Below are positions 9,787-19,171 of a stretch of 64,000 nucleotides of DNA, one piece after another; position 1 is the stretch's first letter, and each line of letters opens with the position of its first letter. Origin of the DNA: a bacterium (lineage in GTDB: Bacteria > Bacillota > Clostridia > Lachnospirales > Lachnospiraceae); assembly GCA_023666335.1 (NCBI GenBank), contig JAMPCE010000002.1, forward strand, positions 1-64,000, given 5' to 3'. The notes beneath the pieces are model-generated. The model had not been told where the DNA came from and did no database searches. It was given only the letters and a program-made list of their open reading frames with translations. Made by a program: the position numbers and the translations under genes.

Positions 9787-12480
9787 ATGCGCAAAAAAAT
9801 ACAACACTTTTTTCATGCCATGTTTCCCGGGCAGTTGGAATTTAGAGAACTGATCAACCGCATCGTGATGCTCATGGTGTTCGCCTGCTCCGTGATCGGC
9901 GTTGTACTCATCCTGTTAGGCGCCGACCACCGGGTGATCTACGGCCTGTTGTCCATCAGTGTGGTCTCCGGGATATCCATTTATCTCACTGTCGTAAAAC
10001 ACAACAGCAAAGGGGCCTCCTGGCTTCTTCTGATCGGCATAAACGGATTCCTTTTCCCGTATCTCTTTCTCACCGGAGGCGGCACGCAGAGCGGCATGCC
10101 CGTCTGGTTCGTGCTGGGACTGGTCTATGTATTCCTGCTGTTTGAGGGCAGAAGTTTTATCCCCGCCATGATACTTTCTGTCCTCGCCTTTCTGGGGGCT
10201 TATCTGCTCGGTTACTACTACCCGGAGATCGTGCCGGATTCCACGCGCTTCTACAGCTTTTCGGACTCCTATATCGCTTTGGTCTGCGTCAGCGCCTTTA
10301 TCGGCATTGTCTTAAAACTGCAATCCGGGACCTACGAGCGGGAGCGCGAACTTGCGGAGAAACAGCGGCAGGAAGTGGAGCAGATCGCCCGCTCCAAAGA
10401 TACCTTTTTTGCCAATATGAGCCATGAGATCCGCACGCCCATCAACACCATCATCGGCTTGAATGAAATGATCCTGCGGGAGGATATCTCGGACGAGATC
10501 GCGGAGAATGCCATCAACATCCAGAATGCCAGCAAGATGCTGCTCACCACCATAAACGATATCCTTGACCTCTCAAAACTGGAGTCCGGCAAAATGGACA
10601 TCGTGCCCGTCCAGTATGAGATCGGTACCATGTTCAGCGATCTGGTGAATCTGGTCTGGATCCGCGCGCACCAGAAAGACCTGGAATTCAAAGTGGACAT
10701 CGACCCTGAGATCCCCTCCATGCTCTACGGCGACGAGGTGCGGATCAAACAGGTCGTGACCAACTTATTGACCAATGCAGTCAAATATACGCAGACAGGT
10801 TCTGTCACCCTGACCGCAAAAGGCGAACGCGTCGCCGCAGACCAGATCCTTTTACGCATCTCCGTGGAAGACACCGGCATGGGCATCCGCAAGGAGAGTC
10901 TGGACGACCTGTTCAGTTCTTTCAAGCGGGTGGACGAGACGCAGAACCGCAACATCGAGGGAACGGGGCTGGGCTTGAGCATTTCCCAGCAGCTCATGGA
11001 AATGATGGGCGGAAAGATCACCGTGGACAGCGTCTATCACAAAGGCTCCGTCTTTACGATCGAATTGAAGCAGCGCATCATCAACGTGCGCCCCATCGGC
11101 GTCATCAACTTTGCCGCCCAGAAACAGATGAACCAGCGCGCCCGCTACAGGCAGACCTTTATCGCTCCGGACGCCCGCATTCTGGTGGTGGACGACAATT
11201 CCATGAACCTGATGGTGGCGGTGAAACTCCTGCGGGATACCAAAGTCCGGGTGGACACGGCGGAGAGCGGAAAAGAAGCCTTAAAAAAGACGGCGGAAAA
11301 CGCTTACCATCTCATCCTCATGGATCATATGATGCCGGAGATGGATGGGGAAGCCACGCTTCACGCCCTCCGCACCCAGACAAAGGGGTACTGTCAGAAA
11401 ACGCCCGTGATCGCCCTGACCGCAAACGTGATGTCCGACGCCGAGCAGGTCTATCGGAATATGGGCTTCGACGGCTATCTGGCAAAACCCATCAGCACTC
11501 CGCTGCTGGAGGCAAGTCTGTTACAGTATCTGCCGCATGAACTGATCGAATATCTGGCAAAGGAGGAGCCGGAGGAAGAGACCGCATATGAGGGTCCCAA
11601 TCAGGTGGTTGGCGTAAGAAAGCGCAAAGTCGCCATCACGGCGGACTGCATCTGCGATCTGCCAAAAGACCTCTTAGAACGGTTCAAGATCCGCCTGATG
11701 TACTGCTATGTCCATACCGGAGAAGGACGCTTCTGCGACCTCTTTGAGATCTCCGCGGACAGCCTCTTAAACTATTTACAGACAGAGGGGAACGAATCGC
11801 ACTCCTCCACGGCAGAACCGTCCGAATATGAATATTTCTTCGCGGAGACGCTGACGGAAGCCGAGCATGTTCTCCACATCACGGCAACGTCGGATTTAAG
11901 CGGCGCTTTTCCCAATGCCAGTCAAGCGGCGGGCAGTTTCGGCAACGTGACGATCTTCGACTCCGGTCATATCAGCAGCGGGCACGGCCTCATGGTTCTC
12001 TATGCGGCTGTTCTTGCCGAAGAAGGAAAGACCGTTTCCGAGATCTGCGAGGCGCTGGAAAGCTACAAAGAACGCGTCTTCTCGAACTTTCTGGTACCGA
12101 GCACGGATACGCTGCACCGCTGCGGAAAGGTTTCCGGCGCCGTGCACAAGCTCTGCGCCGCATTAAACCTCCACCCGGTTTTAGCCATGTCCAAAAACAG
12201 GCTGAAACTCTGGCGGATCGAGACAGGAAATATGCACCGGGCGACCAGACAGTATGTGAAAAAACTGCTCGGCCACAGCGAGCACATCGATACCCGCATC
12301 CTCTTCCTCACCTATGCGGGATGCAATGTGGCGCAGATCGACGAGATCCTTTCCGTGGTCGAGCGGTATGTCAAGTTTGACAAGATCATCTTACAGCCTG
12401 CTTCCGCCACCGTGTCGAGCAACTGCGGCATCGGGACATTCGGGCTGATGTTTGTCAGGAAAGAGAAGCAGGAGTCTTAA
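9787..12480 (+). CDS. Hybrid histidine kinase fused to a DegV fatty-acid-binding domain
   Basis: A 897-residue membrane kinase with an unusual C-terminus. About six transmembrane helices occupy residues ~20-180. HisKA His213 lies in NMSHEIRTP; HATPase motifs LLTNAVKYT, DTGMGI and GTGLGLS follow. A receiver domain has Asp513 (LMDHMMPEMDG). Residues ~613-897 match the DegV/EDD fold: an ITADCICDLP start, a Ser/Thr-rich fatty-acid pocket (HITATSDLSGAFPNA), FDSGHISSGHG and a lipid-binding C-lobe. DegV proteins (FakB in staphylococci) carry fatty acids, so I infer that lipid binding tunes this kinase. The start is the ATG three bases after the upstream kinase. A TTGAC-N7-GTCAA word lies at 10768. 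Confidence 0.88.
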   Translation: MRKKIQHFFHAMFPGQLEFRELINRIVMLMVFACSVIGVVLILLGADHRVIYGLLSISVVSGISIYLTVVKHNSKGASWLLLIGINGFLFPYLFLTGGGTQSGMPVWFVLGLVYVFLLFEGRSFIPAMILSVLAFLGAYLLGYYYPEIVPDSTRFYSFSDSYIALVCVSAFIGIVLKLQSGTYERERELAEKQRQEVEQIARSKDTFFANMSHEIRTPINTIIGLNEMILREDISDEIAENAINIQNASKMLLTTINDILDLSKLESGKMDIVPVQYEIGTMFSDLVNLVWIRAHQKDLEFKVDIDPEIPSMLYGDEVRIKQVVTNLLTNAVKYTQTGSVTLTAKGERVAADQILLRISVEDTGMGIRKESLDDLFSSFKRVDETQNRNIEGTGLGLSISQQLMEMMGGKITVDSVYHKGSVFTIELKQRIINVRPIGVINFAAQKQMNQRARYRQTFIAPDARILVVDDNSMNLMVAVKLLRDTKVRVDTAESGKEALKKTAENAYHLILMDHMMPEMDGEATLHALRTQTKGYCQKTPVIALTANVMSDAEQVYRNMGFDGYLAKPISTPLLEASLLQYLPHELIEYLAKEEPEEETAYEGPNQVVGVRKRKVAITADCICDLPKDLLERFKIRLMYCYVHTGEGRFCDLFEISADSLLNYLQTEGNESHSSTAEPSEYEYFFAETLTEAEHVLHITATSDLSGAFPNASQAAGSFGNVTIFDSGHISSGHGLMVLYAAVLAEEGKTVSEICEALESYKERVFSNFLVPSTDTLHRCGKVSGAVHKLCAALNLHPVLAMSKNRLKLWRIETGNMHRATRQYVKKLLGHSEHIDTRILFLTYAGCNVAQIDEILSVVERYVKFDKIILQPASATVSSNCGIGTFGLMFVRKEKQES

Positions 12481-15800: not shown

Positions 15801-18563
15801 TTAACCTTTATAGTACTCCCGCATCTCCCTCTGCGCCGCCTGCACTTCCTCATACAGTTCCCTCGCGGAGACGCGGATCGCCCCTGCGCCCAAAATGATG
15901 ATCTGCTCCAGCCCATCGGAAGTCGCCACCCGCACATGATTGTTTTTTCCGCTCATCCTGCGCGTCACTTTCTCAATATACTGGTCGGCTGTCTCCGCTT
16001 CTTTCGTGTAGACCACGTCGATATTGTGGTAATGCTCCACGCTTCCGGGGTTTCCCTTTACCCGGTAAGCGTCAAACACCAGAATCACGTTTATTTTGCG
16101 AAATCCCTGAAAGTTACTTAAAAGATCCATCAGTCTGCCGCGCGCCGCGTTCAGGTCGCTCTTTGCCAGCTCGCTTAATTCCTCCCAGGCAAAAATGATA
16201 TTGTAGCCGTCCACCAAAAGGTACTCCGCACGCTTCTCCTGCCCGCCGCGGTATTCCACTTCGACGGCGGGCGGCGTCTTTGCGCGGATCGTTCTCGCCC
16301 AGCCCTGCTTTTTTGACTCCTTTGTTCCGTAAGTCCGCGCAAAGATCTCTTCCACTTCATCTTGACCAATAAAGTCAATCGTAGATCTGCCGCCAGCCGC
16401 TCGTTTTGCGTAACGCTGCGCAAAACTGCCGGTTTCGTCGTCCTTGTCTGCTGCGTCTCCGCCGCCTGCGCTGTCTGCTTTGTCCGAGTTGCGTTGACCA
16501 TTTTGGTCATTTAAGCCGTAGATACTGCCGTCAGCCAGCTTCCATCCGGTCTTCAAAGCAGGTTCTAAGTGCATATAGTCTTCCACCCGATCCCACTCTA
16601 CCACAAAGCCCGCGCCGTGCGCGCAGAACACGGAGCCGCAGGGATTTTCCGTATCATGTTCCGCTTCATAACCGATCCGGTCAATGACCTCCTCCGCGTT
16701 ATGGCAGGGTTCATACCCCTTTAATGTGGTAAAGAGCCGTCCTTTCCCCGCTGTGTAAGCAAGCATCCTGCTCTGGTAGCCGCCAAATTCCGAGACCGGC
16801 ACCGTGCCCGTAAGCACCGCCTCCTCACCCACGGTCTCGGGCGCCTCAAAATGACCGCACATCGCCTGTATATCCGTCATGGCACGCCCCACCAAAGAGG
16901 CGGGCAGTTCCATGCGGAACGCGTAGATTGGCTCCAGCAGCACACTCTTTGCGCGGCACAGCCCCTGCCGGACGGCACGGTAGGTCGCCTGTCTGAAATC
17001 GCCGCCCTCCGTGTGCTTCACATGCGCTTTCCCCGCCGCCAGCGTGATCTGCATATCCGTGATCGGCGATCCCGTCAGTACGCCGGGGTGCGCCTTTTCC
17101 GCCAAATGCGTAAGGATCAGCCGCTGCCAGTTCCGGTCCAGATCGTCCTCGCTGCAGCAACTTTTGAAAACAAGACCGCTTCCCCGCTCGCCCGGTTCCA
17201 AGATCAGATGCACTTCCGCATAATGCCGGAGAGGCTCAAAATGCCCGACGCCCTCCGCCACGTCCGCGATCGTCTCCTGATAGAGAACGCTCCCTTCGTC
17301 GAACGTCACCTCCATGCCGAACCGCTCCAGGATCAGTTTCCTTAAGATCTCGATCTGCACCTCGCCCATGAGACGCACATGGAGTTCGCCGCTCTGCTCC
17401 TGCCTGACTGGATGAAGCAGCGGCTCCTCCTCTTCTAGTTTACATAACTTTATATAGAGGTCGTGAATGTCCAATCCCTCCGGCGGATTGACCCGATAAG
17501 TCATAACGGGTTCCAGAAGCGGCAGGATCGTCTCCTCCTCCGCCCCAAGCCCCTGCCCGCAGAAAGTATGTTCCGGACCCAGAAGCGCGCAGATGCTGCC
17601 TGCCGCCACCTCCTGCACAGCCTCGTAGCGTTCGCCTGAATATTGTCTGATCTGGTCAATTTTTTCTGCGTCTGTCGTTTGAATCGTCTGCTTCACTTTC
17701 AGGCTGCCGCCTGTCACTTTGATATGCGTCAGGCGGTTCCCCTGCGCGTCCCTGCTGATCTTAAAGACCCGCGCGCCAAACGTTTCTCCGTGATCGGGCG
17801 TCGGCGCATACACAAAAAGGGCGTCGAGCAATGCCGCCACGCCGTCCCCTTTCAAGGCGGATCCGAAAAAGCACGGAAAAAGCCTGCGCTGCGCGATCAG
17901 TTCCGCGATCTCCTCGTCCCTGATCAGATCCGATGCCGCTCTCCGCTCTTCCATCCGCTCCAGATACTTCTCCAAAAGCGACTCGTCGCACATTGCGATG
18001 TTTTCATAAAACGCGCCGTCACGTTCTCCTCCCGCGCCGATCTCGTCTGCATCCGCCTGATCCGTGCGCGCAAACGACACGCAGCGGCTGTCCAGCTCCT
18101 TCTGCACGCCCGCAAGCAGCTTATCTTTGTCTGTTCCCGGCTGATCCATCTTATTGATAAAAAGAAAGACCGGCACCCGATAACGCTCCAGAAGCCGCCA
18201 CAGCGTCAATGTGTGGCTCTGCACCCCGTCCGCGCCGTTCACGATCAGCAACGCGCAGTCAAGGACCTGCAATGTCCGCTCCATCTCCGCCGAAAAATCC
18301 ACATGCCCCGGCGTATCTAAGAGCGTCGCTTCCGCGCCTTTCCACGAAAAGCGTGCCTGCTTGGAAAAGATGGTGATGCCGCGTTCCCGCTCCTGCGCGT
18401 CCGTATCCAGAAACGTATCCCCGTGATCCACGCGCCCCGCGCTCCTGATCTCGCCCGCAGTATACAGAATCTGCTCCGCCAGCGTCGTTTTTCCCGCATC
18501 CACATGCGCCAACAGACCGATGCAGACCTGCTTTTTCCTTTTTCTTTCTTCGTGCCCGCCCAT
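15801..18563 (-). CDS. TetM/EF-G-like translational GTPase fused to a C-terminal NYN (YacP/Rae1-like) domain
   Basis: Ribosome-associated GTPase of 920 residues. The G domain carries AHVDAGKT (19-26), DTPGHVDF (83-90) and NKMD (137-140), followed by EF-G-type domains like those of Tet(M)/Tet(O) ribosomal protection proteins. After a charged, low-complexity linker (~655-775) comes a NYN/PIN-like nuclease domain (780-920) with acidic residues in VDGYN (Asp785), VFDAYR (~Asp831) and ATSDG (~Asp883). This domain resembles YacP/Rae1, which cuts mRNA in the ribosomal A site. I infer a ribosome-rescue or mRNA-cleaving factor rather than plain tetracycline resistance. The start follows GGAAGGAG. The linker coding region holds two TTGAC-type palindromes (16362, 16494). 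Confidence 0.85.
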   Translation of the reverse strand: MGGHEERKRKKQVCIGLLAHVDAGKTTLAEQILYTAGEIRSAGRVDHGDTFLDTDAQERERGITIFSKQARFSWKGAEATLLDTPGHVDFSAEMERTLQVLDCALLIVNGADGVQSHTLTLWRLLERYRVPVFLFINKMDQPGTDKDKLLAGVQKELDSRCVSFARTDQADADEIGAGGERDGAFYENIAMCDESLLEKYLERMEERRAASDLIRDEEIAELIAQRRLFPCFFGSALKGDGVAALLDALFVYAPTPDHGETFGARVFKISRDAQGNRLTHIKVTGGSLKVKQTIQTTDAEKIDQIRQYSGERYEAVQEVAAGSICALLGPEHTFCGQGLGAEEETILPLLEPVMTYRVNPPEGLDIHDLYIKLCKLEEEEPLLHPVRQEQSGELHVRLMGEVQIEILRKLILERFGMEVTFDEGSVLYQETIADVAEGVGHFEPLRHYAEVHLILEPGERGSGLVFKSCCSEDDLDRNWQRLILTHLAEKAHPGVLTGSPITDMQITLAAGKAHVKHTEGGDFRQATYRAVRQGLCRAKSVLLEPIYAFRMELPASLVGRAMTDIQAMCGHFEAPETVGEEAVLTGTVPVSEFGGYQSRMLAYTAGKGRLFTTLKGYEPCHNAEEVIDRIGYEAEHDTENPCGSVFCAHGAGFVVEWDRVEDYMHLEPALKTGWKLADGSIYGLNDQNGQRNSDKADSAGGGDAADKDDETGSFAQRYAKRAAGGRSTIDFIGQDEVEEIFARTYGTKESKKQGWARTIRAKTPPAVEVEYRGGQEKRAEYLLVDGYNIIFAWEELSELAKSDLNAARGRLMDLLSNFQGFRKINVILVFDAYRVKGNPGSVEHYHNIDVVYTKEAETADQYIEKVTRRMSGKNNHVRVATSDGLEQIIILGAGAIRVSARELYEEVQAAQREMREYYKG

Positions 18564-18577
18564 GCAAATGCTCCTTC

Positions 18578-19171
18578 CTACGCTTGTGAGAGGGACACGA
18601 AATGCGCGTAATGCTGCGGCTTAAACATCTTTCGATAAAGAGTATCCAATGCTTCCAAAGACGCCGTTTTCCCGTGTCCGCCAAACGGTCTGTACAACAC
18701 ACTGTAATCAACGCCGAACAGCACAGAGCGAAACGGCGTCAATGCACAGCCGCAGGACTCATAAAAAGCGATCCGCCGCTCTCTGGTCAGGCGCTGCTTT
18801 TCGTTTTTCGCCGCCGCGATCCGCTCGGATTCAATATACAATCCCTCTATATCGGGCAGCCCGCTTGCAAAATAAGCGTCAAACAGCGGAAAGGCAAGAT
18901 GCCCCAGCCCCTCGCCGCGCCTGTCGGAGAGGATCGCAAAATAATCGAGCAACGCGCACCCTGCCTCCTCGCAGAGAATAAAGACCGCGTAGCCTGTAAG
19001 CCCCGCTTCTCCGTAAAGACCGAGCGTAAAGCCGTAACCGGCTTCCCTGCTTTTTAAGATATGGCTTAAGGGCTTCAATTCCGCGGGCGGGAAATCCTTT
19101 TTCATGTAAGTATGATAAATCTGCGTGATCTCCTGCTCGTCCAATCTTTCTACCCGATACTGCACCATCAT
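18578..19171 (-). CDS. GNAT-family N-acetyltransferase
   Basis: Predicted acetyltransferase of 197 residues with the GNAT fold. Motif A is weak (LSDRRGEGLGHLAFPLF), while the C-terminal FYESCGC segment is typical. The substrate is unknown. The ATG overlaps the DUF512 stop by four bases (ATGA), so translation is probably coupled. The next gene downstream on this strand is the GTPase-NYN fusion, 14 bp away, so the three genes look like one operon. Confidence 0.78.
   Translation of the reverse strand: MMVQYRVERLDEQEITQIYHTYMKKDFPPAELKPLSHILKSREAGYGFTLGLYGEAGLTGYAVFILCEEAGCALLDYFAILSDRRGEGLGHLAFPLFDAYFASGLPDIEGLYIESERIAAAKNEKQRLTRERRIAFYESCGCALTPFRSVLFGVDYSVLYRPFGGHGKTASLEALDTLYRKMFKPQHYAHFVSLSQA

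Follow-up and report, generated by a model that had tools for sequence, protein, structure and literature searches.

Translational GTPases of the EF-G and Tet types enter the ribosomal A site with their domain IV, and in Tet proteins a loop of this domain, YSPVS, dislodges tetracycline. Rae1 is a ribosome-linked mRNA cutter, and the protein from Bacillus subtilis works without any such GTPase. The two activities have been seen together before, because Tet proteins of ten Clostridiales species were described as having gained a YacP-like NYN RNase domain (Atkinson 2015; PMC4342817). The architecture to which an earlier note on this DNA had drawn attention is therefore not new. A search of openly available papers found no functional study of the fusion. 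What is new is the evidence for a GTPase that probably lies outside the Tet group, for displacement of free rae1, for the co-occurrence of the separate parts, for a candidate pre-fusion genome, and for a motif in the linker.

Architecture of the fusion protein

The window is a stretch of 64,000 nucleotides from a Lachnospiraceae genome (assembly GCA_023666335.1, contig JAMPCE010000002.1, positions 1 to 64,000). From the letters alone, the earlier note had placed a ribosome-binding GTPase and a Rae1-type nuclease in a single protein at 15801-18563. These coordinates proved exact and the strand is minus, with the gene reading from an ATG at 18563 to 15801 and its start codon lying 14 bases past the stop of the upstream gene. 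Pfam and Foldseek searches bear out the pairing, in that all five EF-G domains (G, II, III, IV, and V) are present in order and are followed by NYN_YacP (Pfam). The features are as follows.

15801..18563, minus strand: complete coding sequence of the GTPase-Rae1 fusion, 920 amino acids (window open reading frame and domain search)
About 18571-18579, minus strand: ribosome-binding site AGGAAGGAG, just 5' of the fusion ATG
17802..18530, minus strand: GTPase domain, residues 12-254 (Pfam GTP_EFTU, 1.1e-52, and alignment)
17562..17777, minus strand: EF-G domain II, residues 263-334 (Pfam EF-G_D2, 2.1e-7)
17301..17513, minus strand: EF-G domain III, residues 351-421 (Pfam EFG_III, 4.2e-9)
16947..17291, minus strand: EF-G domain IV, residues 425-539 (Pfam EFG_IV, 6.5e-17)
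16992..17030, minus strand: domain IV tip loop 3, KAHVKHTEGGDFR, residues 512-524 (alignment)
16698..16943, minus strand: EF-G domain V, residues 541-622 (Pfam EFG_C, 3.9e-17)
16560..16697, minus strand: family-specific C-terminal extension, residues 623-668, including SVFCAHGAGFVVEWDRVEDYMHLE (alignment)
16236..16505, minus strand: linker, residues 687-776 (AlphaFold2, mostly pLDDT <50)
16329..16364, minus strand: helical motif EVEEIFARTYGT within the linker, residues 734-745 (homologue alignment)
15810..16220, minus strand: NYN/Rae1 nuclease domain, residues 782-918 (Pfam NYN_YacP, 4.1e-50)

In alignment, the G1-G5 motifs of the GTPase (AHVDAGKTT, RGITI, DTPGHVD, NKMD, and SALK) are all intact. 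Both the GTPase body and the nuclease are predicted with confidence in the full-length model, and the best Foldseek matches of the body are EF-G structures.

The nuclease half is a close counterpart of Rae1. Its AlphaFold2 model (pLDDT 89) superimposes on the Rae1 crystal structures 5MQ8 and 5MQ9 with TM scores of 0.84-0.87, and these are the best Foldseek matches, far ahead of others. Thus the structure prediction that the earlier note had proposed as a check does reveal a nuclease-like fold. At the sequence level, phmmer pairs the domain with Rae1 of B. subtilis (5MQ8) at an E value of 4e-28. Residues D785, D831, D860, E864, and D883 correspond to D7, D53, D81, E85, and D104 of the B. subtilis protein and are invariant in all 57 Rae1 domains compared, fused and free, which agrees with the earlier suggestion that acidic residues are suitably placed for cleavage. 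Among these, D7 and D81 are reportedly catalytic in B. subtilis, as Leroy is said to have found in 2017. The domain in the window matches PF05991 over positions 1-139 of 166, and the last 25-30 residues of Rae1 are absent. This C-terminal tail (approximately residues 142-170) is kept in many other fused members, and R166P in the tail region of B. subtilis Rae1 behaves as a loss of function (PMC6613710). The fold itself is not defined by this tail.

Between the two halves lies a linker of about 90 residues that is predicted to be disordered and that ranges from 65 to 140 residues in 94 relatives (median 95.5). Because of this linker, the nuclease is likely to be held on a tether and not locked into the A site, where the earlier note suggested that the fusion may place it. 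Within the linker, E736 is invariant in 72 aligned homologues, and a loose form of the surrounding motif is present in 88 of 98 fused proteins. Perhaps this conserved helix may serve as a docking peptide.

Several features of the surrounding DNA were recorded as well. The upstream neighbor (18578-19171, minus strand) encodes 197 amino acids that look acetyltransferase-like by eye, although no Pfam match was found, and it is kept at that place only in the nearest relatives. A conserved operon partner for the fusion was rejected, since neighbors are common to the nearest relatives only. Elsewhere in the window, at 9787-12480 on the plus strand, is a hybrid histidine kinase (HisKA, HATPase, and receiver domains) with a C-terminal DegV domain (Pfam, 4e-43), which is an unusual pairing of signaling and fatty-acid-binding families.

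Distribution, displacement of free Rae1, and a proposed function

The earlier note had called for a search for the same fusion in other genomes and had raised the prospect of an assembly error. That objection is answered by 80 named loci from independent assemblies that match the full fusion length, nearly all of them labelled Lachnospiraceae or relatives, and by well over 100 genomes in which an open frame of 850-1000 amino acids spans the two halves. The fusion is single-copy and chromosomal in most sampled Lachnospiraceae genera and in many other clostridial families. An NYN_YacP domain was found in 179 of 200 genomes of the window's own family, where the matches listed lie in frames of at least about 850 amino acids except for 17. 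Across the class, the domain is present in 192 of 293 genomes; among those listed, 86 carry the fusion (one also with a free copy), 58 have free Rae1 alone, and 5 are truncated at contig ends. Both halves are under strong purifying selection (dN/dS of approximately 0.07-0.11), and the linker is looser. Judged from these genome comparisons, the fusion is a vertically kept chromosomal factor of Clostridia, with the distribution of a core gene rather than of an acquired one.

The possibility that the gene is phage-borne or mobile was rejected, as a scan of viral contigs found no fusion. Two records named "Bacteriophage sp." do hold it, and one of these (MT835563.1) looks like a mislabelled bacterial contig because it also encodes prolyl-tRNA synthetase and DapF.

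In the genome that includes the window, the sole NYN_YacP domain is that of the fusion, and the cysS-mrnC-rlmB operon is without rae1 after rlmB. An unrelated 101-amino-acid gene (contig C78, locus L198, 3001-3306) occupies the position of rae1 and sigH in this genome. Among the free-Rae1 genomes of the family, rae1 follows rlmB in G017, G043, G022, G082, G005, and G169; it lies away from rlmB in G048 and in G405. The genomic evidence indicates that in much of Clostridia the fusion has taken the place of free-standing Rae1, and this replacement suggests that the two activities cooperate on ribosomes.

The separate parts also tend to occur together. Within the family, none of the 20 genomes without the nuclease carries a member of the GTPase clade, and 8 of 10 true free-Rae1 genomes have an unfused GTPase of this clade elsewhere in the genome, with the GTPase frame broken in one of the eight (G082). 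This association is significant (p = 7.7e-6) by a Fisher test that ignores kinship among genomes. A ninth genome with free Rae1 and an unfused GTPase, G405, comes from the class sample. Because the unfused GTPases of the free-Rae1 genomes belong to at least three lineages, the pairing is not a single inherited event. Outside the family, the counts among the genomes listed are 12, 45, 6, and 95 (p = 0.0075), drawn mostly from one family and with kinship ignored. There, 45 of the 57 free-Rae1 genomes listed are without a GTPase of this clade. Furthermore, at least six genomes of the class have the GTPase without Rae1, and therefore each part can act alone.

Regarding origin, the fused nucleases and the free Rae1 proteins of the family form one clade (100/99). 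Neither the nuclease tree (p-AU 0.519) nor the GTPase tree (p-AU 0.263) rejects monophyly of the fused sequences, and one fusion event would fit the histories of both halves. The genome G169 looks like a pre-fusion state, because its unfused GTPase branches as sister to the fused clade (100/99) and its free Rae1 falls in a clade adjoining the fused nucleases. The idea that the family's free Rae1 arose when the fusion split apart is not supported, with most of these genes located in the ancestral rlmB operon and monophyly of the fused nucleases not rejected.

We give about an even chance to the proposal that the protein acts in the ribosomal A site, its GTPase targeting stalled ribosomes and its tethered Rae1 domain cutting the mRNA, the coupling of the two being what we infer from the findings above. 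The rescue or quality-control role under GTP control suggested in the earlier note is plausible in view of the co-occurrence of the parts. The GTPase body would dock at the ribosomal factor site in the manner of EF-G, with the domain IV tip in the decoding site, where this distinctive tip might probe or clear the A site. GTP hydrolysis would then take place and the GTPase body would withdraw, after which the nuclease, kept close by its flexible tether, would enter the freed A site and cut the codon. Domain IV and Rae1 should compete for the A site, and therefore the two would act in turn rather than together. The cut would turn a paused ribosome into a substrate for tmRNA-type rescue, and decay of the mRNA would start. 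In an EF-P mutant, a defect in motility is suppressed by loss of Rae1 (PMC6613710).

A fuller version of this proposal is offered more tentatively. It holds that the fusion might be a GTP-driven rescue factor that cuts mRNA in the A site, that it might represent a previously undescribed class of translational GTPase, one that recognises stalled ribosomes and then yields the A site to the nuclease on its tether, that it might stand in for free Rae1 in much of the gut Clostridia, and that the unfused GTPase might be the partner of Rae1 in relatives.

It is also conceivable, although we consider it rather unlikely, that this is a fusion of convenience in which a GTPase, such as a specialised elongation or back-translocation factor, is joined to an ordinary Rae1 without functional coupling. 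Counting against coupled A-site action are the activity of B. subtilis Rae1 on its own, a class-wide association that is weaker than that in the family, the free-Rae1 and GTPase-only genomes counted above, and the missing Rae1 tail of the protein in the window. The existence of both GTPase-only and Rae1-only genomes and the long disordered linker would likewise be expected from two uncoupled parts. However, such parts would not readily account for their non-random co-occurrence in the family, the loss of free rae1 where the fusion is present, the retention of the fusion across many families, or the conserved motif in the linker.

Relationship of the GTPase half to tetracycline resistance proteins

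A different role was proposed in 2015, when such proteins were classed as Tet and the RNase domain was suggested to contribute to resistance (Atkinson 2015; PMC4342817). Tet proteins are indeed the nearest characterised relatives among PDB matches (Tet(O), 1e-76), and a five-domain EF-G-type body supports the Tet(M)/EF-G likeness seen in the earlier note. The features that define Tet function, namely the loop, the clade, and the score cut-off, are nevertheless lacking. On the NCBI Tet equivalog NF012153, which has a cut-off of 775 bits, the fusion scores 430 bits and other members of its GTPase clade score 379-442 bits, whereas a Tet(M) control reaches 880 bits. Fused and unfused GTPases form one clade (100/100 support) apart from Tet(M/O/S) and EF-G, in a tree whose long EF-G outgroup branches leave the exact branching order unsure.

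The domain IV tip and the C terminus are also distinct. Tet(M) has YYSPVSTPADFR in alignment where loop 3 of the fusion has KAHVKHTEGGDFR. The tip of the clade is made of GHFEPLRHYAEV and xHxKHTEGGDFR, for which the Tet counterparts are PPNPFWAS and YYSPVSTPADFR. The motif KHTxGGDF is present in 96 of 98 fused proteins, and [KV]HTxGGDF in all 19 unfused relatives; the YSPVS loop was found in none of these 117 clade members (0/98 fused, 0/19 unfused). A C-terminal extension, SVFCxHGAGFxVxWxxVxxYMH, is aligned in fused proteins and unfused relatives but not in Tet or EF-G, and it is folded with good confidence in the AlphaFold2 model.

Genome content points the same way. Several genomes carry the fusion together with a real Tet-type gene of approximately 640-660 amino acids (e.g., G173, G227, G239, G332, G408, G437, and G451), and the core-gene distribution described above is unlike that of an acquired gene. 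Thus, the GTPase is probably not a Tet protein and belongs to its own clade within the EF-G-type GTPases, tetracycline protection is probably not the main job of the fusion, and the 2015 idea of ribosomal protection, with the RNase domain contributing to antibiotic resistance, seems quite improbable to us. With a score far below the cut-off, a clade of its own, and no YSPVS, the Tet label should go. The misreading as a resistance gene that the earlier note anticipated does occur, in that an unfused clade GTPase on the Ligilactobacillus salivarius plasmid p612A (locus L171, 4983-6917) is annotated as TetM/TetW/TetO/TetS family with 379 bits against 775. NCBI names one fused example a "translation factor GTPase family protein."

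A role in rRNA/tRNA processing or in ribosome assembly, with the GTPase docking on ribosomes and the NYN domain trimming structural RNA, is very hard to credit because, although NYN domains were first proposed for rRNA/tRNA maturation (cited in PMC4342817) and free rae1 adjoins rlmB and mrnC (an rRNA maturase), the RNAs that Rae1 is known to cut are translated mRNAs (PMC10100781, PMC12320835) and the fused gene lies outside the mrnC-rlmB operon.

Implications and comparison with described systems

If the fusion does act as an A-site factor with coupled halves, then a GTPase would control A-site cleavage of the Rae1 type in one of the most abundant groups of human-gut bacteria, and the unfused GTPase would be a first candidate for a Rae1 partner. 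Likewise, some proteins classed or annotated as tetracycline resistance determinants would be housekeeping translation factors, which would affect counts of resistance genes. Should the coupling prove wrong, the uncharacterised GTPase clade nevertheless now has signatures that can be searched for and tested.

Compared with Tet(M) and Tet(O), the GTPase half is a five-domain EF-G-like protein of similar length with 28-31% identity, but it is without YSPVS, carries the SVFCxHGAGF..YMH extension, forms a separate clade, and scores under the NCBI Tet cut-off. With EF-G it shares domain order and fold at approximately 26% identity, and it differs at the domain IV tip; the window's genome carries separate EF-G genes as well. 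The nuclease half resembles B. subtilis Rae1 in fold, in all active-site acids, and in approximately 40% of its residues. However, that protein is free-standing, about 170 amino acids long, and encoded in an rlmB-rae1-sigH operon, whereas the nuclease in the window is tethered to a GTPase and is without the last 25-30 residues. Finally, the Tet-NYN fusions of Atkinson 2015 have the same combination of an EF-G/Tet-type GTPase and a YacP-like NYN domain, also in Clostridiales. The present analysis differs from that description by placing the GTPase outside Tet and by finding a spread far wider than ten species, and it adds that free rae1 has been displaced and that the two parts, where they are separate, tend to occur together.
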